This document shows, piece by piece, positions 5,315 to 33,596 of a DNA stretch of 37,981 nucleotides. The stretch is from the NCBI GenBank assembly GCA_944390535.1, contig CALXQV010000024.1:1-37981 (forward strand). Direction: 5' to 3'. A model generated the notes under the pieces. The model searched no databases and was not told where the DNA came from. It saw nothing but the letters and a program-made list of their open reading frames with translations. Every line of letters begins with the position of its first letter. Position 1 is the first letter of the stretch. Position numbers and translations under genes: made by a program. The stretch comes from an uncultured Clostridia bacterium (lineage in GTDB: Bacteria > Bacillota > Clostridia > TANB77 > CAG-508).

Positions 5315-7090
5315 ATGAAAATAGGAATTGATATAGATAATGTAATATCAAATTTTGATGAAATATTACTAAATGAATTTATCATTCATGATAAAGAATT
5401 AGGTAATAATGGAGTTCCCAATAAAAATGCTGATTATATAACAATAGGTATGTTTAATTGGGCAAAAGAGGAAATACATAATTTTTACCATGATCATATT
5501 GAAAGAATTGCTAAAAGTTTATCTTTAAAAGATGGTGCAAAACAATACATAGACAAATTAAAACAAGATGGGCACATGATTTACATTATCACAGGTAGGG
5601 ATAATGGAGAATACTCGGATCCATATACTATGACAAAAGAATGGTTATCTAAATTTAATATATATTATGATGATCTAATCTTAACAAATTCTTATCAAAA
5701 TGATAAACATGGAAAAACAAAAGTATGTCTAGAAAATGGTATAGATATCATGATAGATGATTCTGCACATATTTGTAATGATTGCATTGAAAATGGAATT
5801 GAAGCATTATTGATGGATACACCTTATAATAATAAAGAACATATACAAAGGGTTCATAATTGGAATGAAATATATGATTATATTTCAAATCATGAAAATC
5901 ATTCTAAGACAAATAGATTATCTTTTATATCTAAAATTTTAATACTAGATCAATCCATTGGAAAAATCATAAGTATCTTTTTAGATATTTTCTTAGCCGC
6001 ATATTTCTATAAAATATCTAGCCAAAATATATTTTATCTATCTATTTATAATATTGTGACTTGGATTGTTGCAACAATTGGGGCACTTTTAGTTGCCAAT
6101 ATTATAAAAACCAAGGATAAAATAAAACTATATAGATTTGGAATATTTATAAAATCCTTATATATTTTTATGATTATACTTTTAGGAGAAAAAATTGTTA
6201 GTTACGTGTATATTCTAGGAATAATGAACGGTATATCCATAGCTACTACTGGTTTTCCATTTAATATGATTGAATCAGAAAATATCTCAAAAAAAGAAAG
6301 ATGTAAATATGTAGGCTATGCATCAGCCGCAACAGAAATAATGAGTTTTGTAGTTCCCATATTATTAGGAGCATATATAACTGTTCAATCCTATCAAGTA
6401 GCAGCAATATTAATATTTGTGTTTTCTATATTAAAATTCATGTTTAGTTTTTATATAAAAAATAAAAATATACAAAAATCAAAAGTTAATTTAAAAGATT
6501 TTAATACCATTTATAAAAACGATACAAATTTAAAAAAATTATATATAATAGAATTCTTAAAAGGATTTAATCGATATGGCGTAATGAGTTTAGTTGTATC
6601 ACTTTTAATAATATATCAAACTAGTAATGACTTTGAACTAGGTGGATGGACATCCGTATTTTCTATCTTTACAATCATAGCAATGTTTCTATTTGGAAAA
6701 TATTATCATAAAGATAAAAAGAACCAGACTCTTATAATATCATTATTATTTTCAATAATAAGTTTTATATTTGTGTTATATAAAATTAATATGACAACCG
6801 TAATATTATATAATATAGTTTATTATATATTTATGAATATTATTTTAAAGACAACAGAAATAGATTTATTTGATTATTCAAATAAATTACCTTTCAAGAC
6901 AATGTATAACACAGAATATTTTATATATCGTGAAATATTTTTAAATATTGGTAGAATATTAGGATATGTAGCATTATTAATATTAGTTGGTTTTACACAA
7001 AATCTAGCTAATTTAAATATTATATTTTTTATCATCGTCCTATCAATAGTAGGTGTTGTTCTCATTAGTCAAAAAATAAAAATTAGATAA
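5315..7090 (+). CDS. Fusion: HAD-type 5'(3')-nucleotidase domain + MFS-like transporter
   Basis: One uninterrupted frame of 591 residues joins two domains. Residues 1 to about 190 are a HAD phosphatase of the 5'-nucleotidase (NT5C) kind. Motif I is GIDIDNVIS, motif II is IITGRD, the Lys of motif III lies in HGKTK, and motif IV is IMIDDSAH, so all catalytic elements are present. From about residue 205 to the end the protein is very hydrophobic, with roughly ten to twelve membrane segments and an MFS-like layout; a FPFNMIESE segment and a GYASAATEIMSFVVP segment are visible. An AGGTG ribosome site precedes the ATG. The arrangement suggests dephosphorylation of a nucleotide (or similar phosphate ester) coupled to export or import of the product. 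A guanine-deaminase-like gene converges on it, which fits nucleoside salvage. The domain calls are good; the coupling is inference. Confidence 0.8.
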   Translation: MKIGIDIDNVISNFDEILLNEFIIHDKELGNNGVPNKNADYITIGMFNWAKEEIHNFYHDHIERIAKSLSLKDGAKQYIDKLKQDGHMIYIITGRDNGEYSDPYTMTKEWLSKFNIYYDDLILTNSYQNDKHGKTKVCLENGIDIMIDDSAHICNDCIENGIEALLMDTPYNNKEHIQRVHNWNEIYDYISNHENHSKTNRLSFISKILILDQSIGKIISIFLDIFLAAYFYKISSQNIFYLSIYNIVTWIVATIGALLVANIIKTKDKIKLYRFGIFIKSLYIFMIILLGEKIVSYVYILGIMNGISIATTGFPFNMIESENISKKERCKYVGYASAATEIMSFVVPILLGAYITVQSYQVAAILIFVFSILKFMFSFYIKNKNIQKSKVNLKDFNTIYKNDTNLKKLYIIEFLKGFNRYGVMSLVVSLLIIYQTSNDFELGGWTSVFSIFTIIAMFLFGKYYHKDKKNQTLIISLLFSIISFIFVLYKINMTTVILYNIVYYIFMNIILKTTEIDLFDYSNKLPFKTMYNTEYFIYREIFLNIGRILGYVALLILVGFTQNLANLNIIFFIIVLSIVGVVLISQKIKIR

Positions 7091-8995: not shown

Positions 8996-10129
8996 CTATT
9001 TTCCTAATTTTACGACAATTTCTCTTTTTATTTTCCCTCTATTAATTTTGACTGTTACTTCATCATTAGGTTTCTTTGTGTAAATATATTCTCTTAAATC
9101 ATTCATTGTTTCTAATGTCACCTCATCTATTTGTGTAATTATATCTCCTTCTTTTATTCCTGCTGTATCTGCCGGACCATTTTTTGTTACTTCTGTTACA
9201 TAAATTCCTTCTTGAAAACTGGTATTTGTCCCTGTTTCTAAATATGGTATTACCTCTGTATCATAAGCATATATTCCAATTTTAGCTTCTTGAAAATCTC
9301 CTGTATTTTGATAACTCTCAATAATAGGTTTTACAATATTAATAGGTATAGCAAAACCAATTCCTTCTGCAGAAGATATTTTTACTGTATTAATTCCAAT
9401 CACTTGTCCATTGGGATAAATAAGTGGTCCTCCACTATTTCCCGGGTTAATTGTTGCATCCGTTTGGATTAGATCTGTCATATAAGATACTGTATCCTCT
9501 TCTTCAATTTTTATTGTTCTGTTCTTCGCACTAATAATTCCCGAAGTAACAGTTCTTCTAAATTCAAAGCCAATCGGATTTCCAATAGCATATACCGTTT
9601 CTCCTATTTTAATATTATCTGAGTTAGCTAATGTAACATATTTTAAGTTATTCGCTTCTATTTTTACAATTGATACATCAATATTAGAATCACTCCATAC
9701 AACTGTTCCATTATAATTATTTCCATTTTCTAATGTCACATAACATTTGCTATATTTACTCCCTGTTACATGTTCATTACTTAAAATATAGCCGTTTTCC
9801 GTGACAATAATCCCTGTTCCTAATCCTAATTGGCTTTCTGTACTATTCGAAAAAATAGAAGTTCCTGCATTTTTTAATTTTGATATTCCTACTACACTTT
9901 CTACTGTTTCTTCAATAACATCTGCCACAGTTTTACTTTCTTCCTCTACTTTTCCCACAGTTTGTTCTTCTATTGTGGATTGTGTCCTTTCCGCTGTATA
10001 ATTTGAGTTGTTTATCTCTATATTATTATATGTAACATATATATAAAATCCTAATAACCATATCACTAATAAAAAGATTGTTGTAGTAATAATCTTTTTT
10101 CCACTATTTTTTCTTTTGGCTCTTTTCAA
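8996..10129 (-). CDS. HtrA/DegP-type membrane-anchored serine protease with PDZ domain
   Basis: A quality-control protease at the outer face of the membrane. I choose the TTG at 10129 as start because GAGGTGG lies 5 nt before it. The frame is open to an ATG at 10180, but that would start inside the end of a repeat element. This gives 377 residues with a membrane anchor (about 12-33), a low-complexity linker and a trypsin-like domain. The triad is H120 (SNEHVTGS), D151 (SNIDVSIVKI) and S232 (NPGNSGGPL). One C-terminal PDZ domain (about 300-375, GPADTAGIKEGDIITQID) completes it. The HtrA family degrades misfolded exported proteins. It stands alone, separated from the next upstream gene by a 305-bp repeat element. 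The choice among HtrA, HtrB and YyxA orthologues is not possible by eye. Confidence 0.9.
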   Translation of the reverse strand: MKRAKRKNSGKKIITTTIFLLVIWLLGFYIYVTYNNIEINNSNYTAERTQSTIEEQTVGKVEEESKTVADVIEETVESVVGISKLKNAGTSIFSNSTESQLGLGTGIIVTENGYILSNEHVTGSKYSKCYVTLENGNNYNGTVVWSDSNIDVSIVKIEANNLKYVTLANSDNIKIGETVYAIGNPIGFEFRRTVTSGIISAKNRTIKIEEEDTVSYMTDLIQTDATINPGNSGGPLIYPNGQVIGINTVKISSAEGIGFAIPINIVKPIIESYQNTGDFQEAKIGIYAYDTEVIPYLETGTNTSFQEGIYVTEVTKNGPADTAGIKEGDIITQIDEVTLETMNDLREYIYTKKPNDEVTVKINRGKIKREIVVKLGK

Positions 10130-10178
10130 TAAAACCACCTCAAAAATAGTATTGACCATATTTAAAATTTTAGTCATC

Positions 10179-10483
10179 AAAAAGGAATTTTGGGGACGGA
10201 CTCATTTTTGCTTTTTAGTATTACACAACAAAAATATAGAATATAAAAGTCATTACACAATTTTGTATAAGATAAATTTTCATAGAAATTCTAAATAAAA
10301 AAGTGAGCCTCTTTCATTGTTGCCAAAAATCATAGGCAAAATGAACATCTCTTACTTTTTTATTAAAGAATTTCTAATTTCAAATTTATATACGCAAAAT
10401 CGTTTCATTTTTTTATATTCTATATTTTTTCTATCGTTTAAACCAAAAAGGGAAAGATGAGTCCGTCCCCAAAATCCCTTTTT
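10179..10483. mobile_element. MITE-like element with 27-bp terminal inverted repeats (copy 1)
   Basis: The ends 10179-10205 and 10457-10483 are inverted copies differing at one of 27 positions; both contain TTTTGGGGACGGACTCAT. The interior is itself nearly palindromic (AGAAATTCT..AAAAAAGT against ACTTTTTT..AGAATTTCT), so the whole would fold into one long hairpin. It encodes nothing. Its minus-strand interior (GATTTTGCGTAT, GATGTTCATTTT, CTTATACAAAAT in order) matches the interior of the element at 20036-20267. It sits between the starts and stops of two minus-strand genes. Confidence 0.8.
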
Positions 10484-10489
10484 CAACTA

Positions 10490-12217
10490 TTAAACTTTCT
10501 TTAATTCTTCATAACGCTTTACTTTTTTCGTTGTTGTTTTAATCAAAGGTTCTGTTGTTATCGTTATCTGTTTTATATGTTTAAATACTGGCAACTGTTT
10601 ATTCATTTCTTTTATTTCTTCCCAGATGCTATCTTTATATTCTTTTACGGTTTTTTCTCCTAGTTTTTCCTTTATCATATCTTTATCATACACAATTTTA
10701 GCACATAACATCGTATCTGTTTTATCTTTTTCTCTTTGGTAAACTAAAGATTCTGTTACATAAGGAATTTTATTAATCAAAAATTCAATTTCTTGTGGAT
10801 AAACATTTTTTCCATTTTTTAAAACAATAATATCTTTTTTTCTACCTGTTACATAGATAAATCCATCTTCTGTTATATACCCATAATCTCCTGTTCTAAA
10901 CCAACCATCAACAAATGCTTTTTGATTTTCCTCTTCATTATGATAATATCCCATCATAACGCTTGGACCTTTTACTAGGATTTCTCCTTCTCCATTTTCA
11001 TTCGGATTTTCTACTTTTACATTTAGACTTGGTAGAGCTAGTCCTACGGAACCTGGCATTTTTTCTTTGTCTGATTCTGCTGCAATAACTGGTGATGTTT
11101 CTGTTAAACCGTATCCTTGTACTAATGCAATTCCAAAATTGTTAAAACCTACAATTGTTTCTTTATCCATAGGTGCTGACCCATATAATACGACACGAAG
11201 ATTTCCTCCAAAATTATCTAATATTTGTTTAAAAATTACTTTTCGTAAATCTATTCTACATTTTAAGAGTCCATTAGATATGTTAATCATTCGCTTCATT
11301 AATTTGTGTTTTCCTTGATCATGGATTGCTTTTTGAATTTTTTTATACATCGTTTCTAATACCAAAGGAACTGCTACAAATACAGACACTTTATACTCTG
11401 CCAGATTTTTTTGAATATATTTTAATCCATCGCAAAAAGCAACTGTACAACCACTATAAAATCCATAAAGAAAGGTTACTGTACATTCAAATGTATGATG
11501 AATTGGTAAAAAAGAAAGCAAGGTATCTGTCGGATATAGCCTTACCCATGAAGCGAAATCTGATAAATTGGCACATATGTTTTTTTGAGATAACATAACA
11601 GCTTTAGGTACATTCGTTGTTCCTGATGTAAATAACATAATAGACATTTTCTCTGGATTGATTTCTACTTTTTCATAGCGATTATCTCCATTTTTCACTA
11701 ATTCCTCACCTTTTTGCAATAACTGCGAAAATCTTTCTATGTCTTTATCTTTTATTTCATCCATACATATTAACATTTGTAAATTCACATTTGTATCTTT
11801 TTTTAATTTTTTCATAACCTCTATATATTTTTTATCAAATATGGCTACTTCTGCCTCACTTCTTGTTACCAAGTTTTCTATTTCATTATCTGGAAGCGCT
11901 TTATCTAATGGGACAATAATCATATTTCCGCTTGTAACTGCTAAATAACTAATACACCATTCATATCGATTATTTCCAATGACAACAATTTTTTTATGTT
12001 CTAACCCTTTATTTAATAATTCTGTTGCAAAAGCTTTGATGTCTTTTCCCACTTGTTCATATGTCTTTTCCACATATTTTACATTTTTTAAATCTCCATT
12101 TTTTTTATATTTATAGGCTATTTTATCTGCATAATTTTTGACAGAATATTCTATCATCTCCCTATAATTTTTTACAACTCTTGGCTCATAAACCTTCCTA
12201 TTTTCATTATCTCCCAT
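10490..12217 (-). CDS. AMP-forming acyl-CoA (or acyl-ACP) synthetase, long-chain type
   Basis: 575 residues of the adenylate-forming family, which activates a carboxylic acid with ATP and transfers it to CoA or a carrier. The phosphate loop is LFTSGTTNVPKAVML (about 195-209; the usual Gly after GTT is Asn). Further motifs are GYGLTETSP, GWFRTGDYGY, GRKKDIIVLKNGKNVYP and a C-terminal TTTKKVKR carrying the catalytic Lys. The order and length match fatty acyl-CoA ligases. The ATG follows GGAGGGAGCGT. It is divergent from the NRPS gene, with 311 bp between them. The NRPS begins with a condensation domain that needs an acyl donor, so this ligase is a plausible supplier; general lipid metabolism is the alternative. 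Confidence 0.85.
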   Translation of the reverse strand: MGDNENRKVYEPRVVKNYREMIEYSVKNYADKIAYKYKKNGDLKNVKYVEKTYEQVGKDIKAFATELLNKGLEHKKIVVIGNNRYEWCISYLAVTSGNMIIVPLDKALPDNEIENLVTRSEAEVAIFDKKYIEVMKKLKKDTNVNLQMLICMDEIKDKDIERFSQLLQKGEELVKNGDNRYEKVEINPEKMSIMLFTSGTTNVPKAVMLSQKNICANLSDFASWVRLYPTDTLLSFLPIHHTFECTVTFLYGFYSGCTVAFCDGLKYIQKNLAEYKVSVFVAVPLVLETMYKKIQKAIHDQGKHKLMKRMINISNGLLKCRIDLRKVIFKQILDNFGGNLRVVLYGSAPMDKETIVGFNNFGIALVQGYGLTETSPVIAAESDKEKMPGSVGLALPSLNVKVENPNENGEGEILVKGPSVMMGYYHNEEENQKAFVDGWFRTGDYGYITEDGFIYVTGRKKDIIVLKNGKNVYPQEIEFLINKIPYVTESLVYQREKDKTDTMLCAKIVYDKDMIKEKLGEKTVKEYKDSIWEEIKEMNKQLPVFKHIKQITITTEPLIKTTTKKVKRYEELKKV

Positions 12218-12528: not shown

Positions 12529-15500
12529 ATGGATACTTTAAATTATGAATTAACAAACCCACAAAAATCTATTTTATTAACAGAACAATTTAATGAAAAT
12601 ACTTGCGTTTCAAATATATGTGGGACATTATCTATTCCAGAAAAAATACATGTAGATGCTTTAGAAAAAGCAATTAATATATTTATAAAAAGTAATGATT
12701 CTATAAGAATTCATTTAACACAGGATGGTCCTGATATTAAGCAATCTGTCAAAGACTATTCTTTTATTGACATTGAAAAAGTTTATCTTACAAGTGATTA
12801 CCCTTTATCAAAGCTAGAAGAAGATGTTATTACAAAACCTTTTACACTTTTTAATAGTAATTTATATCGTTTTGTTATTTTTAAAAATGCGGATGGCACA
12901 GGTGGATATATGGCTAACCTACATCATATTATTTCTGACGCTTGGACAATGAGCTTATTAATTGACCAAATTATGAGCCATTATGTTTCTATTATTCAAA
13001 ATATCCCCATACCAAATACAAAAAATAGTTCTTATATAGATTTTATCCATGAAGAAAAAAACTACATAGAAAGTCCAAAATTTGAACGTGCAAAAACTTT
13101 TTGGAAAAAGCAATTTGAGCATTTAGAATTTTCTTATTTAAAAGACTCTCAAGCTAGTTCATATGAAGCAATCAGAAAAAGTGTTGTTCTTTCTAAAGAA
13201 GAGACCAATCACTTGGTAACCTTTTGTAATAACCATAAAATTTCTCTATTTTCACTTTTTATGGCTGTTTTAAATATCTATTTATCTAAAATCAATAATA
13301 CAAGTTCATCTATTGTTGGAACACCTATATTAAATAGATGTAATTTCAAAGAAAAAAACACAACTGGTATGTATATTAGTACTGTACCTTTTCATATGGA
13401 AATAGACAAAGCTTGTACTTGTATAGATTTTATTAACTCTGTTTCTAAACACGAATTGAGTGTGTTTAGAAATCAAAGATATCCATACAATTTATTATTA
13501 GATACCATTAGAAAAAAATTTAATATTTCTAAAAATCTTTACGATGTTTGTTTATCTTATCAAAATGCAAGAAATCATAGGGCTAGTTGTTCTGTCCCAT
13601 ATTCTTGTAGATGGCTATTTAATCATTGTGTAGTTAATAATTTAGACATTCATTTATATGATATAGATGATACTGGTATGATTAGCATTTATTATGATTT
13701 CAAAAAAGATTTATTTACTTTAAAAGAAATTGATTTATTACATGAACGTTTAATGGAAATGTTACAACAAATTATGGAAAATCCAGAATTAACCATTAAA
13801 GATCTTCAAATTATTTCTTCTAAAGAAAAAAACTATATATTACATACATATAATCCTACAAAAGCAGAAGCTTCTTTTGTTTCTGTTTATGAATTATTTA
13901 AGCAACAATTACAAAAAACGCCTGATAAATTGGCAATTTCTTATAAAAACACATCACTTAATTATCAAGAACTAAACGCACTTGCAAATTTAATTGCGCT
14001 AAAATTAAAAGAATATAGTATTCAACCAGGGGATATCATTTGTCTAGCTTTTACAGATTCTATTGAATTTGTTGCTAGTGTATTGGCTACACAAAAATTA
14101 GGTATTTGTTACATTCCAATTGATGTTAACTATCCAAATGAACGTATTGAATATATTGTAGAAAATAGTCATGCAAAACGAATTTTAACACATCCTAATG
14201 CCTTAAAATCTGTAAAATTAGATAAGAATCTTATTTTGAAAATAGATTTAAATGATTTTGATTATCATACAGAAACAGTTAATATAGATTATGCTTTAAA
14301 AGAAAATGATTTAGCATATATCATTTACACTTCTGGTTCAACAGGAAAACCAAAAGGTGTAAAAGTTTCTCACAAAAGCTTAAGTAATTATATATCTTGG
14401 GCCATTAACCAATATGTACATGATGAAGAAACAAATTTCCCTTTGTTTTCTTCTGTTGCTTTTGATTTAACTGTCACTTCTATTTATACGCCTCTATGTT
14501 CTGGAAATGCTATTTATATTTATCAAAATGAAAATCCACAACTACTGTTAGAGGAAATCATTAAAGATAAGTATGTTCAAATTATAAAATTAACACCTGG
14601 ACATTTTACTTTATTGCAAGATATTGATTTGCATGATAGTTCTGTATGTAAGTTTATTTTAGGAGGAGATATTTTAACCAAAGAAATGTGTGAGAAAATT
14701 ACTTCTTTATTTTCTCATCCCATTCATATATATAATGAATATGGGCCAACAGAGGCAACCGTTGGTTGTATGATTTATGAATATCAGCCAGAAGATACTT
14801 ATACTTCTGTTCCTATTGGATACCCTATTGACCATACACAAATCTTACTTTTAAATCATGCACAAGAATTAGTACCTTTAGATACTGTGGGAGAGATGTA
14901 TATTAGTGGAAATTGTTTGGCACTAGGCTACACAGATGAGCAAAAAACAAATGAAAAATTTATAAATCATCCCTTAGATGATAGAAAGAAAATCTATAAA
15001 ACTGGAGACTTAGCTATTTTACATTCTAATGGTGTGATGGAATATCTAGGCCGTAGTGATTTTCAAGTAAAATTAAATGGTTACCGAATTGAATTAGGAG
15101 AAATTCAATCTATCTTATTAACACACCCATCTATTAAAGATGTTTATATTACACTCATTACCTTAGATGACCATAAATTTTTATGTGGGTATTATGTTTC
15201 CGAAACAGAAATCGAAGATTTATCAGGTTTTCTAAAGAAAAAATTACCTAGTTATATGATACCAAATTATTTTGTAAGATTACAAAAGCTTCCATTAACC
15301 ATTAACGGAAAAGTAGATAAATCTGCTCTTCCTTTACCCAAAAAATCTCATACCAAATATGTAAAGCCACAAAATAAATTAGAAGAAACTTTACAAGAAA
15401 TTTTCACAGAATTATTAGAACAAAAAAATAAAATTAGTGTAGAAGATAATTTGTTTGATTATTATATGGATTCCCTTCTATTAATAAAAGCACAATCTAT

Positions 15501-16755
15501 TTTATATAGCAAAGGAATTTCTGTGAATGCACAAGACTTTTACGAATATCCGACCATCAGGAAAATGGCAGATTTTCTTTTAGTTGAACAACCAAAAGAA
15601 ACTTCTGTTTTAATTGAAAAAATGCCAATTATTAAAGAAATCAGAAAAACAATCGAAGCTCCTGAAACATTTAGAAGGATTATTCTGTTTGGTGCTACTG
15701 GATTCTTAGGAATGCATATATTGTATTATCTATTAACAAACACTTCTACGAAGGTTTTTTGTGTTATTAGAAAAAAAGACTCTGTCAATCCATTAAATAG
15801 ATTTATTACAAAATTTAATTTTTATTTTCCAAATGTAAATATAGAACAATATTTATATCGAATAAAAATTATTGAAGGAAATCTTTTGGATAATCACTTT
15901 GGTATTGAAGAAGATTTATATAATCATTTAGGTACTACATGTGATTGTGTTATAGACACAGCTGCTTTAGTAAAACATTATGGAAATTATGAATTATTTA
16001 ATAAAACCAATGTGAATTCTACTAAAAAAATGATTGCTTTTTGTAAAGAGTTTCAAATGCCTTTACATTATGTATCAACTATGTCTGTATCTGGAAATGG
16101 ATTAGTAAAAACACCTTCTACTGATTTTACAGAAGATGATTTATATATTGGTCAATCTTACAAAGAAAATGTATATGTTAGAAGTAAATTTGAGGCAGAA
16201 AAAGCCGTAATAGAAGCTTGCAAAAATGGTGAAATAATAGCAAGTATTTATCGCTTAGGAACCATTACAAACCGATATGAAGATGGCATATTCCAAGAAA
16301 ATTTTAGTGATAATGCTTTTTTAAATAGATTAGAAGCTTTTATCAATTTAGGAATTTTTCCTAAAGAACTTTCTCACTTTTACTTTGAATTTTCACCAGT
16401 AGACATTTGTGCCAATTTTATTGTACAATTAATGCAACATCAATCTCATAATATAGAAATTTATCACTTATACAACAACCATTATATTTCAGGTTCTGAT
16501 TTAGTAGATATGTTAAGTCATTGTGGTGCTTTGATACAACTTGCTTCTCTTGATGAATTTAAACTTGCTTTGTCTAAAGCTAAGTCCAATTACTTTGGAA
16601 TCACAGCTTATGTAAAAAATATGCATAATAGCATCGTAACCTTACATAATGAAAAAACAAACGCTGCTTTGGAAACCTTAAATTTAGATTGGCCTGAGAT
16701 TAACCTTGAATATGTTCATAAAATTTTATTATACTTAAAAGAAAAATTTAATTAA
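12529..16755 (+). CDS. Single-module NRPS: condensation - adenylation (Asn-like code) - carrier - thioester reductase
   Basis: 1408 residues. The condensation domain (about 1-435) has HHIISDAW at H132-W139. The adenylation domain (about 450-940) has YTSGSTGKPKG (around 602), NEYGPTEATVGC (736-747), YKTGDL and NGKVDK (K928). The carrier domain (about 950-1020) has its pantetheine Ser at S982 in YYMDSL. The reductase (about 1050-1400) has GATGFLG (1055-1061) and YxxxK (Y1216, K1220). Aligned by eye to GrsA, the pocket residues are D646 L647 T650 K687 I710 G712 E737 V745 G746 K928, i.e. DLTKIGEVGK; the classical Asn code is DLTKLGEVGK. With no earlier module, the condensation domain should acylate Asn with a free acyl donor, and the reductase should release an aldehyde or alcohol. 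No phosphopantetheinyl transferase is in the window. AAGGTGATG precedes the ATG. A kinase gene follows after 13 nt. Confidence 0.9.
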   Translation: MDTLNYELTNPQKSILLTEQFNENTCVSNICGTLSIPEKIHVDALEKAINIFIKSNDSIRIHLTQDGPDIKQSVKDYSFIDIEKVYLTSDYPLSKLEEDVITKPFTLFNSNLYRFVIFKNADGTGGYMANLHHIISDAWTMSLLIDQIMSHYVSIIQNIPIPNTKNSSYIDFIHEEKNYIESPKFERAKTFWKKQFEHLEFSYLKDSQASSYEAIRKSVVLSKEETNHLVTFCNNHKISLFSLFMAVLNIYLSKINNTSSSIVGTPILNRCNFKEKNTTGMYISTVPFHMEIDKACTCIDFINSVSKHELSVFRNQRYPYNLLLDTIRKKFNISKNLYDVCLSYQNARNHRASCSVPYSCRWLFNHCVVNNLDIHLYDIDDTGMISIYYDFKKDLFTLKEIDLLHERLMEMLQQIMENPELTIKDLQIISSKEKNYILHTYNPTKAEASFVSVYELFKQQLQKTPDKLAISYKNTSLNYQELNALANLIALKLKEYSIQPGDIICLAFTDSIEFVASVLATQKLGICYIPIDVNYPNERIEYIVENSHAKRILTHPNALKSVKLDKNLILKIDLNDFDYHTETVNIDYALKENDLAYIIYTSGSTGKPKGVKVSHKSLSNYISWAINQYVHDEETNFPLFSSVAFDLTVTSIYTPLCSGNAIYIYQNENPQLLLEEIIKDKYVQIIKLTPGHFTLLQDIDLHDSSVCKFILGGDILTKEMCEKITSLFSHPIHIYNEYGPTEATVGCMIYEYQPEDTYTSVPIGYPIDHTQILLLNHAQELVPLDTVGEMYISGNCLALGYTDEQKTNEKFINHPLDDRKKIYKTGDLAILHSNGVMEYLGRSDFQVKLNGYRIELGEIQSILLTHPSIKDVYITLITLDDHKFLCGYYVSETEIEDLSGFLKKKLPSYMIPNYFVRLQKLPLTINGKVDKSALPLPKKSHTKYVKPQNKLEETLQEIFTELLEQKNKISVEDNLFDYYMDSLLLIKAQSILYSKGISVNAQDFYEYPTIRKMADFLLVEQPKETSVLIEKMPIIKEIRKTIEAPETFRRIILFGATGFLGMHILYYLLTNTSTKVFCVIRKKDSVNPLNRFITKFNFYFPNVNIEQYLYRIKIIEGNLLDNHFGIEEDLYNHLGTTCDCVIDTAALVKHYGNYELFNKTNVNSTKKMIAFCKEFQMPLHYVSTMSVSGNGLVKTPSTDFTEDDLYIGQSYKENVYVRSKFEAEKAVIEACKNGEIIASIYRLGTITNRYEDGIFQENFSDNAFLNRLEAFINLGIFPKELSHFYFEFSPVDICANFIVQLMQHQSHNIEIYHLYNNHYISGSDLVDMLSHCGALIQLASLDEFKLALSKAKSNYFGITAYVKNMHNSIVTLHNEKTNAALETLNLDWPEINLEYVHKILLYLKEKFN

Positions 16756-16768
16756 GGAGGAACATAAG

Positions 16769-18757
16769 ATGAAACCTATTAGAATTTTTAACATTGATAA
16801 TGAAAAAAAATTGGCTTTTGTGAATACCTTAATATTTGCTATGATTGCTACTGTTTTGTATTTTACACTACCTTTTGTGCTAAATTATCCTCCAAATTCA
16901 ACAGACAATAGCTTTCAAATAGAAATTGTTGGTATTACTTATACAACACAATTTTTCATTATCATATCTATTTTACTAATTCTTCTATATATCGCTTTGC
17001 GATTTATATATAGTAAATTATCACTTTCGGAAGAAAAGCTAAATAATCCTGAGTATATTCGAAATTTAAGAAAAAAATCTTTTAACTATCCTTATATGAT
17101 GCTTTTGTTAGAATTATTTGTTCCTTCTATTATTATTGCTATTTTATTATTTGCATTTAATACAGAGGCAGAGTTAGTTATTAGAATTACAACTGTTGTG
17201 TTCTCTTTTTCTGCCGTGTTTGCGATATTTTCTTATATGCTTAGTAAAAAATTCTTTTCTAACAGATTAACAGCAACAGCAGCATTAGCTAAAAATGAAG
17301 TAACAGGCGTTCGATTACCTTTATATAATAAATTATTAATACAAATACTACCGTTATTTCTATATTCTTTTGTTTTAATTTTGCTAATTTCTATGTCACT
17401 TATGACAAGAGAAAAAGGAGATTTATTATATCATTTTTACAGACAAGAATTGTTATCTCGTTTTAATGAAGAAACAGTATATGATATTGAAGAAGTAAAA
17501 AATATTCTAAACTCCATAGAATTTAAATCTGAAGGTGATCATGCATTAATTATGTCTGCTGATGATGGAGAAGTGATTTATTCTCCTGAACCATTAAATG
17601 CCTTTTTTACAAAATATGTTTTAAATTTCTATGATGAAACAGATGGATATACTTATGAATATTATGGTCAAAACAGAGAAGGTGCTGTTATTAAAATTAA
17701 CACCAATATGGGGCAATGTTATATTGGTATTCGTTTCTTTGTTTTTGGCAATAATTTTATCGCACCATTTTTATTAATTGCTTTATTGCTAATTTTGATA
17801 AATTGTCTTTTCATTCTTTATATTGGTAAAGATTTAAGTAATGATATTAATAGTGTTATTGATGGAATGAAACATATATCTAATTCTGATGATGTCATAT
17901 ATGCCAATAACTTACCTGTTACTTCAAATGATGAAATTGGTGATTTGACTGTGTCATTTAATAAAATTCAAAAATTAAATAAAACCTATGTGGATCAATT
18001 GCACAGCAATCAAGAAACTTTAATGGAAAGTGAACGTCTAGCATCTTTAGGACAATTAATTGGTGGTATTGCTCACAATTTAAAAACGCCTATTATGTCT
18101 ATTTCTGGAGCTTTAGAAGGATTATCAAATTTAATCAAAGAATATCAAGATTCTATTGATGATCCTGAAGTTAACTCACAAGATCATCATGACATCGCTA
18201 ATGATATGTCTGAATGGATTTCTAAAATAAAAGACTATACAGAATATATGTCTGACATTATTACTGCTGTTAAGGGACAAGCTGTTACATTGTCTGAAAC
18301 ATCTGCTGTCCATTTTACCATTGATGAATTGGTTAAACGTGTGAATATTTTAATGAAACATGAATTGAAAAATTCTCTAACCTATTTGAATATTTCTATG
18401 AAAATGGATGAACATACAATTATAAATGGGGATATTAATAGCTTGGTACAAGTCATTAATAATATGATATCAAATGCCATTCAGGCATATGGTGGCCAAA
18501 AAAATAAAAATATTGAATTAATATTAGAAACAAAAGATAATCATGTATTAATACATGTAAAAGATTATGCAGGTGGTATGCCACAAACTGTTCAAAATAA
18601 ACTATTTAAAGAAATGATTACAACAAAAGGAAAAAATGGTACAGGTCTAGGGTTGTATATGTCTTACTCAACCATAAAAGCACATTTTAATGGTGATATT
18701 GTCTTTGAATCCGAATTAGAAAAAGGTACAACTTTCACTATTATATTACCTTTATAG
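16769..18757 (+). CDS. Multi-span membrane sensor histidine kinase, co-transcribed with NRPS
   Basis: 662 residues, starting 13 nt after the NRPS stop with AAGGAGG in the gap. Five membrane segments (about 15-39, 60-80, 109-130, 137-158, 188-212) are followed by an outside domain (213-328) with a small Cache-like look (HALIMSADDGEVIYSP). A sixth segment (329-351), a HAMP-like linker (350-405) and the kinase core follow. The phospho-accepting His is H436 in GGIAHNLKTP; the ATP lid has N569 (NMISNAIQA), DYAGGM and GTGLGL (624-629). It should phosphorylate a response regulator, most simply the REC-HD-GYP protein 193 bp downstream. Tight linkage to the NRPS suggests that it senses the NRPS product, its precursor or its effect on the envelope. 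That is inference; the kinase call is safe. A terminator follows at 18851. Confidence 0.9.
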   Translation: MKPIRIFNIDNEKKLAFVNTLIFAMIATVLYFTLPFVLNYPPNSTDNSFQIEIVGITYTTQFFIIISILLILLYIALRFIYSKLSLSEEKLNNPEYIRNLRKKSFNYPYMMLLLELFVPSIIIAILLFAFNTEAELVIRITTVVFSFSAVFAIFSYMLSKKFFSNRLTATAALAKNEVTGVRLPLYNKLLIQILPLFLYSFVLILLISMSLMTREKGDLLYHFYRQELLSRFNEETVYDIEEVKNILNSIEFKSEGDHALIMSADDGEVIYSPEPLNAFFTKYVLNFYDETDGYTYEYYGQNREGAVIKINTNMGQCYIGIRFFVFGNNFIAPFLLIALLLILINCLFILYIGKDLSNDINSVIDGMKHISNSDDVIYANNLPVTSNDEIGDLTVSFNKIQKLNKTYVDQLHSNQETLMESERLASLGQLIGGIAHNLKTPIMSISGALEGLSNLIKEYQDSIDDPEVNSQDHHDIANDMSEWISKIKDYTEYMSDIITAVKGQAVTLSETSAVHFTIDELVKRVNILMKHELKNSLTYLNISMKMDEHTIINGDINSLVQVINNMISNAIQAYGGQKNKNIELILETKDNHVLIHVKDYAGGMPQTVQNKLFKEMITTKGKNGTGLGLYMSYSTIKAHFNGDIVFESELEKGTTFTIILPL

Positions 18758-18850
18758 GATGATATTTCCTCTTAACTGCATAATAAAAATATTGTATTTT
18801 TAGTTAGATTTTTTATTTAATCCTATCATTTCATATACTATTTTTATCGA

Positions 18851-18908
18851 CAAAAATCGAGCTTTTTACATATAAAATCAGGTAAAAAGCTTGATTTTTG
18901 TTTTTTTT
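18851..18908 (+). terminator. Terminator of the NRPS-kinase transcript
   Basis: CAAAAATCGAGCTTTTTAC (18851-18869) pairs with GTAAAAAGCTTGATTTTTG (18882-18900) with one G-T pair, and eight T follow. It separates the NRPS-kinase unit from the response-regulator gene. Confidence 0.9.
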
Positions 18909-18919
18909 ATTAATATAAT
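18891..18919 (+). promoter_or_regulatory. Promoter of the HD-GYP regulator, overlapping the terminator
   Basis: -35 TTGATT (18891-18896) lies in the right arm of the terminator stem. A 17-bp spacer contains the T tract, and the -10 is TATAAT (18914-18919). The ATG is 32 bp beyond. The regulator can thus be made independently of the NRPS-kinase unit. Confidence 0.65.
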
Positions 18920-18950
18920 GAAAAAAATTAAATTTTGAAAGAGGTTTAAT

Positions 18951-20021
18951 ATGAGAAAGCATATACAAGGAATAGAAAATGTGGAAAATAACACATATCG
19001 AATTATAGCCGTAGATGATGAAGAGGGAATTGTAGATTCTTTATCTATATTTTTAAAACGTTCTGGATATGATTTTACTGGTGTTACAGACCCACAACAA
19101 GCAATTCAATTAGTAAAAGAAGAACATTTTGATTTGATGATATTAGACTTTATTATGACACCTTTTCATGGAGATCAAGTTGTTGAAGAAATTAGAAAAT
19201 TCAATAAAGATTTATATATTTTATTATTAACTGGGCATAAAGATTTAGCACCACCTTTAGAAACCATTAGAAGATTAGATATTCAAGGATATTGTGAAAA
19301 AAGTGATAAATTTGACCAATTGCTTTTGTTGATTGAATCTGGTATTAAGTCTATTAAACAAATGAATGAAATCAAAGAAATTAATACCAAATTATCTGAT
19401 ACATATGAAAGATTGGAACAAGCATATTTGGATTCTATCAAAACCTTACGTTATACTATTGAAGCAAAAGATGAATATACAAGAGGCCATTCTGATAGAG
19501 TTGCTGCTTTTTCAGTTCTTATGGGGAAAAAACTTGGTTTATCAGAAGAGGATTTACATACTTTAGAAATTGGTGGATTATTCCATGATATTGGGAAAAT
19601 TGGTGTTCCAGATAGTATTTTATTAAAAGATTCAAAATTAACTGATGAAGAATATTCTCAAATAAAACAACATCCAAATATTGGTGTTCATATCTTATCA
19701 AATGCTTCTATATTTGATGATATCTTACCAATTGTGGAACATCATCATGAAAAATATGATGGAACAGGATATCCTGGAAAACTTGCTAGTAATCAAATTC
19801 CATATTTAGCAAGAATTACATCTATTGCAGATAGTTTTGACGCTATGGCTTCGAGAAGGGCTTATCGTGATTCCCTAGATATAGATACAATTATTTCTGA
19901 ATTTGAAAGGTGCAAAGGTACACAATTTGACCCAGAATTAGATGACTTATTTTTAGATATTTTAAAGAATCATTTTGATGAGATAAAAGAAATACAAGAA
20001 AAATATAAATCAGACCAATAA
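18951..20021 (+). CDS. Response regulator with HD-GYP domain (cyclic-di-GMP phosphodiesterase)
   Basis: 356 residues. The receiver domain (about 15-130) has acidic residues in VDDEE, phospho-acceptor D66 (LMILDF), T94 in LLTGH and a Lys in CEKSD. A helical linker (about 135-165) leads to an HD-GYP domain (about 168-350) with HSDRVAAFS, the metal pair H212-D213 in FHDIGKIGVP, HPNIGVHIL and the full HHHEKYDGTGYP signature (264-275). HD-GYP proteins hydrolyse cyclic di-GMP, or related cyclic dinucleotides, through a metal centre. All key residues are present, so it should be active. It has no DNA-binding domain, so its output is second-messenger level. The kinase encoded just upstream is the obvious partner. 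GAAAGAGG precedes the ATG. Confidence 0.92.
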   Translation: MRKHIQGIENVENNTYRIIAVDDEEGIVDSLSIFLKRSGYDFTGVTDPQQAIQLVKEEHFDLMILDFIMTPFHGDQVVEEIRKFNKDLYILLLTGHKDLAPPLETIRRLDIQGYCEKSDKFDQLLLLIESGIKSIKQMNEIKEINTKLSDTYERLEQAYLDSIKTLRYTIEAKDEYTRGHSDRVAAFSVLMGKKLGLSEEDLHTLEIGGLFHDIGKIGVPDSILLKDSKLTDEEYSQIKQHPNIGVHILSNASIFDDILPIVEHHHEKYDGTGYPGKLASNQIPYLARITSIADSFDAMASRRAYRDSLDIDTIISEFERCKGTQFDPELDDLFLDILKNHFDEIKEIQEKYKSDQ

Positions 20022-20035
20022 GAATGTATCAAAGA

Positions 20036-20267
20036 GGACAGACTTACTGGAAATCCTAGTTAAGCATATATGATATAAAAAAATGAATCGATTTTGCGTA
20101 TCTAAATTTGAAGATAGAAATTGTTAAAAAAAATATGAGGGATGTTCATTTTTAATGAAAGCGGCTCATATTTTTTTATACAAGTTCTACGAAAAATTTA
20201 GCTTATACAAAATCGTGAATGGCTTTATATCATATATGCTTAACTAGGATTTCCAGCAGGTCTGTCC
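20036..20267. mobile_element. MITE-like element with 44-bp terminal inverted repeats (copy 2)
   Basis: The ends 20036-20079 and 20224-20267 are inverted copies with two mismatches in 44; the inner 33 positions, including AAATCCTAGTTAAGCATATA, are identical. The interior shares ordered blocks with the minus strand of 10179-10483 (CGATTTTGCGTAT, GATGTTCATTTT, AATGAAAG.GGCTCA, CTTATACAAAAT). A second palindromic GGGAC unit is joined to its right end (20262-20304) and reaches the stop of tex. It lies between converging genes. Confidence 0.8.
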
Positions 20268-20301
20268 CTTTTGACCAATTTTTGTCCATTTTGGCATGTC
20301 C

Positions 20302-22485
20302 CTAACATTTCATAGAAAGTCCAACCTTTTGTCTTTCTTGATCAATCTTAATAACTTTAACTTTTACAATATCCCCTACTGACACAATCTCTGATGGGTT
20401 TTTGATAAATTTATCACTCATTTCTGAAATATGAACAAGTCCATCATGTTTTACACCAATATCTACAAATGCACCAAAATCAATAACATTTCTAACAGTT
20501 CCTGTTAATACCATGCCCTCTTTTAAGTCTTCTAATTTTAATACATCACTTCTTAATATTGGTTTCGGCATATCTTCACGCGGATCTCTTCCTGGTTTTG
20601 ACAATTCTTCAATAATATCTGTTAATGTCATTTCCCCTATGTTTAATTCTTTTGCCATTTCTGGTATATTGACATTTTTTAATTTCACTCTTAATTGTTC
20701 TAATTTTTCTTTATCTTTTAAATCTTGTTTATCAAAACCTAATTGTGCTAATAATTTTTCTGTTACTTCATAACTTTCTGGGTGTACTGCTGTAATTTCT
20801 AATGGATTATCTCCATCAAATATTCTTAAAAATCCAGCACACTGTTCAAATGCTACTTTTCCTAATTTTGAAACCTTTAGCAATTCTTTCCTATTTTTTA
20901 ATTTTCCATTTTCATCTCTGTATTTTACAATGTTTTTAGCTATTGTGTTATTGATACCTGAAACATAAGAAAGTAATGATGGCGTAGCAGTGTTTACATC
21001 AACTCCTACTTTATTAACACTATCCTCTACAACACCTGTTAAACTTTCTTGTAATTTCTTTTGATTAACATCATGTTGATATTGCCCTACACCAATCGCT
21101 TTGGGGTCTATTTTTACTAATTCTGCTAATGGGTCTTGTAAACGTCTAGCAATAGAAATTGCTCCTCTGATAGATACATTGATATCTGGATATTCTTCTG
21201 TTGCTAGTTTTGATGCAGAATATACAGATGCTCCTGCTTCGCTAACAATCACATAATGAACATCTCTTGAAGCTTCTTTTATCATCTCTGCTACAAACAT
21301 TTCTGATTCTCTTGAAGCAGTTCCATTTCCAATAGCTATCATATCAATTTTATCTTTTTCAATTAATGTTAATAATTCTTTTTTTGCACCTTCCACATCA
21401 TTTTGTGGTTCTGTTGGATATACAGTGGTATAATCTAATAATTTTCCTGTTTCGTCAATAACGGCAATTTTACATCCTGTTCGATATGCTGGGTCAAATC
21501 CCATAACGGTTTTCCCTTTAATTGGTGCTCCTAATAATAATTGTTTTGAATTTTTACCAAATACTTTTATCGCTTGATCTTCTGCTTTTTCTGTTAAATC
21601 TGAACGAATTTCTCTATCAATTGATGGTTCTATCAATCTTTTAAAACTATCTAAAATGGTATCTTTTAGCATTTGAGTAAATTGTGTTTCATCTTTTATG
21701 ATGTCTCTTTCCATATAAGTTAATAGTTTATCTTCTGGTTTTTCAATTTTTACTTTTAGAAAATTTTCTTTCTCCCCTCGATTGATTGCCAATATTCTAT
21801 GACTTGGTATGTATTTTATGGCTTCTTGATATTCGTAATACATTTCATAATTTGATTTTTCTTCTGGCTTTACAGCTTTTGTTTGAATCATTGCTTCTCT
21901 ATAACAGATTCTCTTGATTTGTTTTCTATATTTACTATTATCAGAAATATCTTCTGCAATAATGTCTAAAGCTCCTTGTACTGCCTCTTCTGCTGTTGCT
22001 ACTACTTTATCTTTATTCTTCTTATCCTCTTCTGATAAAGTATCTATATTCACATATTGTTTTGCAATTTCAAGAATTGGTTTTGTTTCTTTTTGCTCTA
22101 TAATTATGGTTGCTAATGGCTCTAAACCTTTTGCTTTGGCAACTGTTGCTCTTGTCTTTTTCTTTTGCTTATATGGTCTATAAATATCTTCTACTTCTGC
22201 CAATGTTTTACAAACGGCAACTGCTTGTAAAATTTCATCTGTTAATTTTCCTTGTTCATCAATAGATTTTATAACTTCTTCTTTTCTTTGCTCTAAATTT
22301 CTTAAATAATTTAGTCTTTCGCCTAAGTCTCTTAGAATTTCATCACTTAGTCCTCCTGTTACTTCCTTTCTGTAACGTGCAATAAAGGGAATGGTATTCC
22401 CTTCATCTATTAATTTTATTGTAGCTTCTACTTGTTTTTGTTTAATATTTAATTCTTCTGCAATTGTATTAATAATTTTATCCAT
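20302..22485 (-). CDS. tex: Tex-family S1 RNA-binding protein (transcription accessory factor)
   Basis: 727 residues from the ATG at 22485, which has GAAAGGA before it. The frame extends to 22524, but that would overlap the preceding stop at 22499. The domain order is standard: an N-terminal helical region (INTIAEELNIKQKQVEATIKLIDEG, RYRKEVTGGLSDE), a YqgF/RNase-H-like domain (about 310-430, MGFDPAYRTGCKIAVID), helix-hairpin-helix repeats (about 480-560, TATPSLLSYVSGI) and a C-terminal S1 domain (about 650-725, GTVRNVIDFGAFVDIGVKHDGLVHIS). Tex binds nucleic acid and affects transcription and RNA stability; its exact role varies among species. It follows the dCMP deaminase by 13 nt, so the two are co-transcribed. 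Its TAG stop is the end of a GGGAC repeat. Confidence 0.95.
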   Translation of the reverse strand: MDKIINTIAEELNIKQKQVEATIKLIDEGNTIPFIARYRKEVTGGLSDEILRDLGERLNYLRNLEQRKEEVIKSIDEQGKLTDEILQAVAVCKTLAEVEDIYRPYKQKKKTRATVAKAKGLEPLATIIIEQKETKPILEIAKQYVNIDTLSEEDKKNKDKVVATAEEAVQGALDIIAEDISDNSKYRKQIKRICYREAMIQTKAVKPEEKSNYEMYYEYQEAIKYIPSHRILAINRGEKENFLKVKIEKPEDKLLTYMERDIIKDETQFTQMLKDTILDSFKRLIEPSIDREIRSDLTEKAEDQAIKVFGKNSKQLLLGAPIKGKTVMGFDPAYRTGCKIAVIDETGKLLDYTTVYPTEPQNDVEGAKKELLTLIEKDKIDMIAIGNGTASRESEMFVAEMIKEASRDVHYVIVSEAGASVYSASKLATEEYPDINVSIRGAISIARRLQDPLAELVKIDPKAIGVGQYQHDVNQKKLQESLTGVVEDSVNKVGVDVNTATPSLLSYVSGINNTIAKNIVKYRDENGKLKNRKELLKVSKLGKVAFEQCAGFLRIFDGDNPLEITAVHPESYEVTEKLLAQLGFDKQDLKDKEKLEQLRVKLKNVNIPEMAKELNIGEMTLTDIIEELSKPGRDPREDMPKPILRSDVLKLEDLKEGMVLTGTVRNVIDFGAFVDIGVKHDGLVHISEMSDKFIKNPSEIVSVGDIVKVKVIKIDQERQKVGLSMKC

Positions 22486-22498
22486 TTTCGTTTCCTTT

Positions 22499-22981
22499 CT
22501 ATTCTTCTTCAAAAATCGTATCATCCTTTTGTACCCAGTTTTCTACTTCCTGTACTCTATATTCTTTTTTTGTATCTCTCATAATTACTTTTTCAATTCC
22601 AGCATTAATAATCATTCTTTTACAAAAAGAACATGGTTCGTTATCTGTTACATATTCCCCATTTCGTTGATTGATTCCCACTAAATACAATGTAGCTCCT
22701 ATCATATCCTTTCTCGCTGCACTAATAATAGCATTTTGTTCACTATGTACTGATCGACATTTTTCATATCCTTTTCCACTAGGCATTTCATATTTTTGCC
22801 TTGTACAATATCCTAAATCAATACAATTCTTTCTCCCTCTTGGCGCACCAGAATATCCTGTTGAAATGATCTCATCGTTTTTTACAATAATACTTCCATA
22901 ATTATTTCTTAGACAAGTTCCTCTTTCGGCTACACTTTCTGCAATATTTAAATAATAGTTTATTTTATCAACTCTTTGCAT
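22499..22981 (-). CDS. comEB: dCMP deaminase (ComEB-type)
   Basis: The enzyme deaminates dCMP to dUMP, feeding thymidylate synthesis. I choose the ATG at 22981 (160 residues), about 11 nt after GAAAGGA; a GTG at 22990 lies only 2 nt from that site. The zinc site is HSEQNAI (H79, E81) and EPCSFCKRM (C117, C120). The characteristic insert GYSGAPRGRKNCIDLGYC, with extra Cys residues, matches dCMP deaminases rather than cytidine deaminases. It lies between the ABC-F gene (74 nt upstream) and tex (13 nt downstream), all on the minus strand, so probably one operon. Confidence 0.9.
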   Translation of the reverse strand: MQRVDKINYYLNIAESVAERGTCLRNNYGSIIVKNDEIISTGYSGAPRGRKNCIDLGYCTRQKYEMPSGKGYEKCRSVHSEQNAIISAARKDMIGATLYLVGINQRNGEYVTDNEPCSFCKRMIINAGIEKVIMRDTKKEYRVQEVENWVQKDDTIFEEE

Positions 22982-31898: not shown

Positions 31899-33596
31899 CT
31901 ATACTTGCACATTTTCAATTCTTAACTTTTTTATATGTTTATAACTTACATAAACAATGACAAACATCAAGGTTGTTATCGAAATGATTTTTGAGATATA
32001 CATGTAACTTGTCCCTGTATATTCTACTATAATTTCTGCTCTTTCCATTTCTGGTAAAGAAATTGCTAGAAAACCATTATCACTTTCAAAACTTTCTATT
32101 GTTTCATCATTTATCATTATTTTATAACCAGGATAATAGATATATGGAAATTCTAAAATCGTTCCACCCTCTACTCCTTCTATTTTACAAGTGAAACTTT
32201 GACCATTTTTATTTACTTCCTGTATATTTCCGAGTTCCTTTTATTGCATAAACCGTATCTTCTCTTGTCCTTATATATTCTCTATTTTCATTACTTTTTA
32301 CAGGTAAGTATTCTCCTTTTCCCATTCCTATTATTGTATCTCTTTCATTTGCTGTCACTTTCCCAATTGTATATTGCTCAATCTCTTGTATTTCTAAATC
32401 AATTTGTAGCATTGGTATAATCATTCCTGTGTAGAGAATACAAACACTAGAGATAACAACAATATCTTTATAATTAAAAAACTTGATAATGGTTCCCATA
32501 TTAATTGCACAAATCACTGCTAAAAAGAAATTTGAAAATAGCAACATCCTCCACTTGAATTGTATAATCTGAAAAATATCTTCAAATATTCCCCATGGGA
32601 ATTGTTTTACCGTTATTACCGTAGATAGGATTCCTAAAGCCAAAAACAAGATATATTCTTTTTTATATATTTTATTTATTTTTTTCTTTATAACAAATAT
32701 GGATAGGCAAACCATGATTAAAATGGGTATTCCTATTTCAAATATATGGGTTACCTCTTCTTCTTTCCTATTTGTATATAGTAATGACTTTATATCTAAA
32801 CCGCTTTCATTAAAAGATTCTGTTGTTGCCATACCACCTTTTTGATATACTACATAATCAGCAGAAAAATAAGTTTCTAACATGGGCATCCAGAAAAATG
32901 CACTGATACCTATCATACATACTATGGAAATTCCTAATTGTTTTAATATTTCTTTATCTTTTAATTTTGAAATATTGATACACAGATATACACAAGCCAT
33001 AATAGCGGTTAATACTGTCATTAAAATATGTGTCAAAATCAAACCGAACCGCTCCTATACATAATATCCATTTTCCATTCTCTTTTTGAAATATTTTATA
33101 TAGTCCCCAAAATACAAGCGGAATAAACATATAGCTTAAAAATTCTCCTAAAGCATTTCTAATATACATATCATTTAAATGATACGGCATTACCATATAT
33201 ATAATTGCTGCAAGGATGCCTATTTTTTTGCTCTTTGTTAATGCTTTTACAAACCAGTACATCGTTATTCCGAGAAAAGAAAAGCCCTATAAATAAAGTT
33301 AATTTATATCCTCCTATAAAACTGGTGGTAATATATTTTCCTATTAAAATGAATATAGTCGAAAAATTTCCATAAAATAAATCCCAACTATATCCGAATC
33401 CATTTGTTAAGCTCGATAAAACCTCTGTATGTTCACCATTCATATTTGCTAAATACGTCGCATATGCTCTAGCAATGTGTTGAATCCCATCATCATAATA
33501 TATATATATATCTTCAATAAAAAGTGGAACAGATAAAATACTTGCAACTATTAAGATGATGAACACATATGTATATTTTTTTAATTTTTCTTTCAT
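31899..33596 (-). pseudogene. Disrupted multi-span membrane protein (PTPS-related / YfhO-like, GT-C type), three frameshifts
   Basis: Four consecutive minus-strand fragments (33596-33171, 33262-32954, 33042-32209 and the tail to 31899) read as one ~565-residue membrane protein in shifting frames. The N-terminus has YYDDGIQHIARAYATYLANM, like the DG..H motif of PTPS-related membrane proteins of the GT-C fold. The middle has MPYHLNDMYIRNALGEFLSYM. The C-terminal part reads IYYPGYKIMINDETIE, then a final membrane segment. Breaks fall near 33272-33284, 33040-33052 and 32214-32222; each is repaired by removing one base (giving IGLFFLGIT, IGAFGLILTHIL and KYTEVNKNGQSF). The original role was probably envelope glycan or polymer transfer. 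Either it is a true pseudogene or the assembly has three local insertion errors. The flanking genes are intact. Confidence 0.78.

Follow-up and report, generated by a model that had tools for sequence, protein, structure and literature searches.

The DNA analysed here, a stretch of 37,981 nucleotides (nt) from an uncultured Clostridia bacterium (contig CALXQV010000024.1; hereafter the window, meaning this whole stretch), carries on its forward strand three open reading frames (ORFs) that form the subject of this study. These encode a nonribosomal peptide synthetase (NRPS; 12529-16755, 1408 amino acids, aa), a membrane histidine kinase (16769-18757, 662 aa), and a protein with a receiver (REC) and an HD-GYP domain (18951-20021, 356 aa). 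The kinase ATG lies 13 nt from the NRPS stop, with AGGAGG read ahead of it. Pfam searches assigned HisKA and HATPase_c to the kinase, and Response_reg and HD_5 to the third protein. Between the kinase and HD-GYP genes we found a likely terminator (18850-18901, + strand), consisting of a 20-nt stem (18850-18869 and 18882-18901, 95% complementary, arms 12 nt apart) and a following T run. Because the stem was not among the results of a simple terminator scan allowing loops of 3-8 nt, this label is plausible, not scored. The first-pass annotation of this DNA had described an NRPS with condensation, adenylation, carrier and reductase domains, a membrane kinase after 13 nt, a terminator and a REC-HD-GYP protein; the ORFs and Pfam matches bear out this order, and the terminator is the part of it that stays plausible.

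The NRPS begins with a condensation (C) domain of the starter, or first-module, type, bearing the motif HHIISDA (12544-13839; PF00668, 1e-75, residues 6-437). This is followed by an adenylation (A) domain (13897-15330; PF00501 at residues 457-801 and PF13193 at residues 858-928), a carrier (T, PP-binding) domain (15388-15579; PF00550, residues 954-1017) and a terminal thioester reductase (R), the Pfam-matched part of which spans 15691-16422 (PF07993, NAD_binding_4, 4e-43, residues 1055-1298). A C-A-T module with a NAD_binding_4 reductase and intact motifs is the make-up of a reductase-terminated NRPS; the score with TIGR01746 was 185.5 bits, under the cut-off of 213.35. The best NCBIfam neighbour was the aureusimine synthetase AusA (NF047350), membership of which was ruled out by the score (667.9 bits versus a cut-off of 2500) and by the single module. 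The pocket residues, extracted by script at ten positions that we take to be the specificity positions of the A-domain motifs, read DLTKIGEVGK, the same ten as reported before. This code falls in the Asp/Asn section of a published code list, where cyano-alanine is noted as "also compatible", and within that excerpt of the list no confident call for an amino acid other than Asn stood against the Asn specificity proposed earlier (PMC12283262).

The C domains of the one-module NRPSs and of first modules clustered together with a mean identity of 41%, whereas the 20 second-module C domains formed a separate clade (support 1.0) with 22% identity to the one-module set. The commonest motif was HHxISDA in the former group versus HHxxxDG in the latter. 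Since its C domain groups with those of first modules, the window NRPS looks self-sufficient, with an acyl starter, and the first-pass assumption of a starter-type domain holds. The window genome (84.6% complete) gave one Condensation match, namely the window NRPS, and this, together with the type of the C domain, ruled out the need for an upstream module. Because the checks on the Asn code, the starter C domain and the conserved neighbours (see below) did not go against it, an N-acyl-Asn aldehyde or alcohol is the best prediction for the product from the domain content. Our confidence in the exact molecule is lower than that in signalling through the kinase.

Active-site residues were nearly invariant across all three proteins in the aligned relatives (gaps set aside). 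The first C-domain His was kept in 61 of 65 NRPSs, the carrier Ser and the reductase Tyr and Lys in 65 of 65 each, and the kinase His in 82 of 82. In the third protein, the REC domain (19002-19331; PF00072) carries Asp66, an Asp in 67 of 67 relatives, and the HD-GYP domain (19446-19940; PF13487) has the HD-GYP signature, with the HD His in 66 of 67 and the HD Asp and G-Y-P in 66 of 66. The GGDEF family was found in all 24 genus genomes, and by pattern the window genome has an intact GGDDF at one of its three GGDEF sites, and another genome at one of two. No c-di-GMP-II riboswitch turned up in any of 20 genus genomes, in a search whose control gave no match either. On sequence grounds, the output nucleotide is likely cyclic di-GMP (c-di-GMP), which we hold with less confidence than the signalling itself.

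To describe the conservation of the locus, 80 loci were taken down the match list with fragmentary rows left out (the NRPS having one module in 60 and two in 20), and 10 further loci came from named records (e.g., "uncultured Clostridia bacterium"), of which two carried the label chicken; removal of three duplicates gave 87 loci. Loci from named records without a genus label were counted with the window's genus. In 86 of the 87 loci the kinase gene followed the NRPS gene in the same orientation, and the remaining locus (L048) stopped at a contig end; the gap between the two genes was -40 to 130 nt in 84 of the 86, with a median of 12 nt. The HD-GYP gene lay directly downstream in 61 loci and further along in 8, and none was seen in 18, L048 included; it is coupled less tightly than the kinase. 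Across 292 genomes of the family, at the E-value limits used, matches were found to the NRPS in 219, to the kinase in 213 and to a close HD-GYP relative in 221. NRPS and kinase occurred together in 212 genomes, the NRPS only in 7, the kinase only in 1 and neither in 72; the corresponding numbers for NRPS and HD-GYP were 206, 13, 15 (HD-GYP only) and 58. A chance neighbourhood is ruled out by the 86 of 87 loci and by this co-occurrence.

At the level of the order, the kinase was present in 124 of 191 genomes, the window's own family counted. Outside the family, we retrieved every one of the 20 kinase loci found, and an NRPS match stood beside or near the kinase in 19; the exceptions among these were one contig-end fragment, one locus with two genes between and one with the kinase first. 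An HD-GYP gene was within the fetched stretch in 11 of the 20. At the level of the class, kinase matches occurred in 46 of 391 genomes, 34 of them outside the order, and 20 of these 34 were fetched. The NRPS preceded the kinase in 10 (one a fragment), and an HD-GYP-type regulator of 502-531 aa followed it in 12; the two of these regulators that were scanned are REC-DUF3369-HD-GYP proteins by Pfam. A strict cassette is contradicted by four class-level loci of one family with tandem kinases, by two of another family with a kinase and no NRPS on a short stretch, and by two with just a short REC protein. Among eight class-level NRPS C-terminal parts scanned, five were reductases, two were thioesterases and one (L159) had the carrier as its sole Pfam family. 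These data show that NRPS, kinase and HD-GYP genes form a conserved cassette, the two signalling genes being kept beside the NRPS in loci of the family, the order and the class, as an association inferred from one sequence would have it.

Several loci departed from the usual make-up. Residues ~1030-1440 of the L159 NRPS form a C-terminal domain other than the usual reductase, weakly like PigE and SbnB and far below the cut-offs, and perhaps represent another release chemistry. In L138, a 587-aa ORF and another member of the kinase family, encoded on the opposite strand, lie between the NRPS-kinase pair and the HD-GYP gene; the extra kinase could be a second receptor. L039 (the same place as L052) and L040 have in common a break of the NRPS frame in the A domain, at codon ~690, giving two overlapping ORFs, with the kinase and HD-GYP ORFs intact. 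This may be a shared loss, recoding or an error.

We found that the locus is polymorphic, with one- or two-module NRPSs and many pocket codes. The codes included DLTKIGEVGK, DILQ types, DIFQ types, DVAYLGGICK, DFWNIGMVHK, DSELTAEVCK and DVQFIAHVVK, among others. In the excerpt of the published list, DILQLGMIWK stands for Gly and DVWYLGGICK for Met, and DFWNIGMVHK is named in the Thr section (PMC12283262). The fetched loci of the window's genus had six different one-module codes, besides two two-module loci. Many specificities occur at the polymorphic locus, and Asn is just one of them, a diversity beyond the reach of the earlier reading of a single sequence.

The kinases of these loci share a conserved core (17990-18754 in the window; HisKA His436 and HATPase) and carry one of two types of sensor half. 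The window kinase has the type I sensor (16769-17908), for which hydropathy indicated about six membrane helices, the last two separated by some 130 aa that correspond to an alpha/beta extracytoplasmic domain at ~17402-17743. Its AlphaFold2 model (mean predicted local distance difference test score, pLDDT, 86) showed long helices and a mixed alpha/beta domain. No Pfam family matched the type I sensor above its cut-off, and Foldseek gave no match of the model in the PDB at E <= 0.001; the best matches, chemoreceptor models and the periplasmic domain of CpxA, were at E 0.1-0.2 and were rejected as a known fold. The type II sensor has about seven helices in a shorter protein, with HisKA_7TM and PAS in the two members scanned with Pfam, and its model gave 43 matches at E <= 0.001, nearly all of them, among the matches listed, to PAS-containing proteins. 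This seven-transmembrane (7TM)-like sensor was present in all 19 two-module loci with a full-length kinase. In the two-module loci the 7TM part may go with the second A domain and the PAS part with the C domain (n = 15-19, several models fitted).

We then compared the variation of the kinase with that of the NRPS. Species distance was controlled by either of two flanking markers, the Tex protein or an HtrA-like protease, with 499 permutations over 37-38 loci, and the C and R parts of the NRPS were delimited by position, as its first 440 and its last 370 residues. Given species distance, the distance of the type I sensor correlated with that of the A domain (partial r = 0.46, p = 0.002), whereas the kinase core of the same proteins did not (r = -0.07 and 0.01). 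Along the kinase, r was 0.31-0.57 over residues 1-350 and -0.12 to 0.11 from residue 401; for this analysis L039 and L040 were manually assigned the Asn code, and neither locus was a representative in the nearest-sensor test described below. In a regression over 40 loci, sensor distance went with A (0.35), C (0.25) and R (0.20) and not with HtrA (0.10, p = 0.11), whereas the kinase core and HD-GYP protein went with HtrA (0.61 and 0.57) and not with A.

A similar result was obtained with nearest neighbours, with each combination of genus and code represented by a single locus (31 of 58) and 8 of 10 matching positions taken as the same code, choices that postdate our seeing the data. The nearest neighbour from another genus had the same code for 28 of 30 sensors as compared with 3 of 30 kinase cores (3.2 by chance), 5 of 23 HD-GYP proteins, 0 of 21 HtrA and 2 of 19 Tex proteins. 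In this set, pairs with clearly different codes had a sensor identity of at most 36%, and 6 of 48 same-class pairs were at or below 32%. Pairs with different codes and a Tex distance below 0.1 (n = 19) showed 31% identity in the sensor and 79% in the kinase core. The kinase sensor half tracks the pocket code and the kinase core does not. The N-terminal half of a receptor varies with the synthase and the C-terminal half does not, which is the pattern of a pherotype. This match between sensor and code gives strong indirect support to a kinase that responds to the NRPS product.

From the observed gene set, its conservation, the intact active sites, the polymorphism and the sensor-code match, we infer a self-contained small-molecule cassette that signals through the adjacent kinase, a reading to which we give a probability of about 0.6. 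In this model, the steps of product formation, export, binding, phosphotransfer and c-di-GMP output would run as follows. The NRPS would couple a single amino acid, here Asn, to an acyl group and, by reductive release, yield an N-acyl amino aldehyde or alcohol; the Asn aldehyde could close on its side-chain amide to give a 4-acylamino-5-hydroxy-pyrrolidinone, a ring resembling acyl-homoserine lactones. The product would exit the cell, and the adjacent kinase would recognise it with its sensor half, set the phosphorylation of the REC-HD-GYP protein and so change the level of a cyclic dinucleotide, most likely c-di-GMP. The A-T-R part and the kinase sensor would form a type-specific block, the kinase core, the HD-GYP gene and the flanks following the species, and each lineage would hear its own molecule, as in the agr and ComQXPA pherotypes. 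In outline this is what the first-pass annotation had proposed; what it had seen in the sequence was confirmed, and its interpretation is supported in part, more weakly at the c-di-GMP end.

In its polymorphism the locus resembles agr and ComQXPA, where a contiguous type-specific block comprises the signal-making genes and the N-terminal half of the receptor, and the C-terminal half of the kinase is conserved. The present locus shares this arrangement of a type-specific synthase and receptor N-terminal block with a conserved kinase C-terminal half, but where agr and ComQXPA use ribosomal peptide precursors with a DNA-binding response regulator, it has an NRPS and an HD-GYP protein. NRPSs of gut Clostridia that release their products reductively were reportedly described by Guo et al. 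in 2017. These NRPSs and AusA, which has two modules, are known for peptide aldehydes and pyrazinones and share the C-A-T and reductase parts with the window NRPS; we know of no link of either to a kinase or an HD-GYP protein. In its wiring the locus resembles the RpfF-RpfC-RpfG system of Xanthomonas, which works with the diffusible signal factor (DSF): there, too, a synthase gene is accompanied by a sensor kinase in the membrane and by a response regulator of the REC-HD-GYP type, the kinase-regulator pairing at the present locus being predicted; according to the excerpt available, RpfF is a putative enoyl-CoA hydratase, the signal is a fatty acid and RpfC is a hybrid kinase (PMC6337780). The present locus has an NRPS, a non-hybrid kinase (no receiver domain by Pfam) and a polymorphic sensor, and membership of the Rpf/DSF family is ruled out by the synthase and the kinase type. 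A second precedent for the wiring comes from Vibrio furnissii, where the membrane kinase AsrK detects autoinducer 2 (AI-2) via an extracytoplasmic dCache_1 domain and controls AsrR, a c-di-GMP phosphodiesterase response regulator; unlike here, the abstract names neither a linked synthase nor a polymorphism (PMC11796354). We found no literature on an NRPS with a kinase and HD-GYP protein or with c-di-GMP signalling, judging by titles and the beginnings of abstracts, with subscription papers mostly outside the search.

One alternative explanation is that the A-T-R part and the 5' half of the kinase gene merely travel together as a linked block, crossovers falling in the conserved kinase core and in the upstream part, while the molecule has another purpose and the kinase senses something else. 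Such linkage without recognition could by itself produce the match between sensor and code. Code agreement, tested segment by segment, was about even over A, T, R and sensor (roughly 23-28 of 29), as compared with 8-19 of 29 for C and 2-8 of 29 for the kinase core, and we therefore regard A, T, R and sensor as one exchanged block; the kinase core and the HD-GYP gene are, between types, the well-conserved stretches, which also speaks for this explanation. The order A > C > R in the regression had appeared to argue against linkage, and was dropped since the segment-wise test weakened it. Linkage alone, however, leaves unexplained why 86 of 87 loci, and loci of other families too, keep the kinase next to the NRPS, why presence and absence agree in 284 of 292 genomes, and why the sensor type shifts with the number of modules. 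Given that the two genes stay together across families and that the sensor type shifts in this way, recognition is the better explanation, short of proof, and we consider a linked block without recognition unlikely.

The kinase might instead sense the product, or the stress it causes, within the producer and adjust tolerance or production without any cell-to-cell message. The short NRPS-kinase gaps fit such feedback or self-protection, as would the reactive product expected from reductive release, and the idea is compatible with signalling and does not exclude it; it seems quite improbable to us. Against it, the partner regulator is an HD-GYP enzyme, not a DNA-binding protein, and the maps have no further ORF of constant size and strand, in neighbourhoods that were not systematically annotated. 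Peptide-aldehyde type protease inhibitors are known from gut Clostridia, and the molecule could be aimed at the host or at competitors, the kinase and HD-GYP pair only timing its use. Aureusimine synthetase as the best NCBIfam neighbour and the two-module relatives in the same kind of locus point in this direction; timing by an outside cue, however, needs no sensor that tracks the pocket code, and we rate this explanation as similarly improbable.

Several observations weigh against signalling through the kinase to c-di-GMP. None of 20 genus genomes gave a PilZ match; a c-di-GMP-I riboswitch was present in 4 of the 20, the window genome not being among these. Neither an exporter nor a DNA-binding regulator is among the three genes, the other neighbours not having been systematically annotated. 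An HD-GYP relative occurred without the NRPS in the 15 family genomes given above; 17 of the 86 kinase loci had no HD-GYP gene in the fetched stretch, some being cut by contig ends; 10 of the 20 class-level kinases had no NRPS in the fetched stretch; and two class-level NRPSs terminate in a thioesterase. Five one-module loci (L059, L060, L070, L078 and L080) have a type II sensor, the other one-module loci having type I. The correlations are also less clean than the sensor result alone would suggest, since the HD-GYP protein and the kinase core had partial correlations with some NRPS parts that were lower than that of the sensor yet significant. HD-GYP distance against A gave 0.12 (p = 0.018) given HtrA and 0.07 (p = 0.14) given Tex, and against C and R 0.13-0.27. 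For the kinase core the value was 0.23 both against R with Tex held (p = 0.004) and against C with HtrA held (p = 0.024). Within the 14 Asn-code loci, the sensor went with C (0.58, p = 0.012) and not with A.

Cell-to-cell signalling in uncultured gut Clostridia is little known, and the acyl-amino aldehydes of gut NRPSs are viewed mainly as protease inhibitors. A sensor half that changes in step with the predicted amino acid suggests a new family of lineage-specific chemical signals. More tentatively, and at somewhat less than even odds, this may be the first nonribosomal pherotype system, chromosomal and widespread in uncultured gut Clostridia, in which the exchange of NRPS parts alters signal and receptor and produces many mutually deaf or cross-inhibiting groups that share one second-messenger enzyme. 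If signalling through the kinase is correct, a receptor kinase matched to the NRPS pocket would give acyl-amino aldehydes a native purpose, the matched synthase-receptor pairs could be tested in laboratory strains, and the identity of a signal would be legible from genome sequence through pocket code and sensor type.

Upstream of the cassette, on the reverse strand, lie a divergent acyl-CoA ligase (10490-12217; Pfam AMP-binding, in 19 of 87 loci), which could supply the acyl group, and the HtrA-like protease (8996-10180, in 66 of 87 loci), which stands outside the system and served as a species marker. The Tex protein, the other marker, is encoded downstream on the reverse strand (20302-22524, in 49 of 87 loci); both markers were identified with Pfam. 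A DUF975 gene following the HD-GYP gene in some loci was judged unrelated. The interval from the HD-GYP gene to tex is occupied by an element resembling a miniature inverted-repeat transposable element (20020-20283), with 60-nt inverted repeat arms that are 87% complementary and 144 nt apart. A comparison with the window genome gave 23 rows for it, a number that includes the query itself and self-inverted rows; one of the 23 is at 10234-10425.

Elsewhere in the window, a gene for a Mob_Pre plasmid recombination protein near the start (1123-2517, Pfam) suggests a mobile element. A single ORF at 5315-7090 combines an NT5C nucleotidase part with an MFS transporter part (Pfam). On the reverse strand at 32209-33596, three overlapping ORFs appear by eye to be pieces of one membrane protein, the one piece scanned having no Pfam family. 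Finally, the gene at 36431-37069 encodes a protein in which a zinc finger of the anti-sigma type (zf-HC2) is joined to an FtsX extracellular domain, an unusual fusion by Pfam, and directly follows a gene at 35928-36434 whose product is sigma-factor-like by eye.

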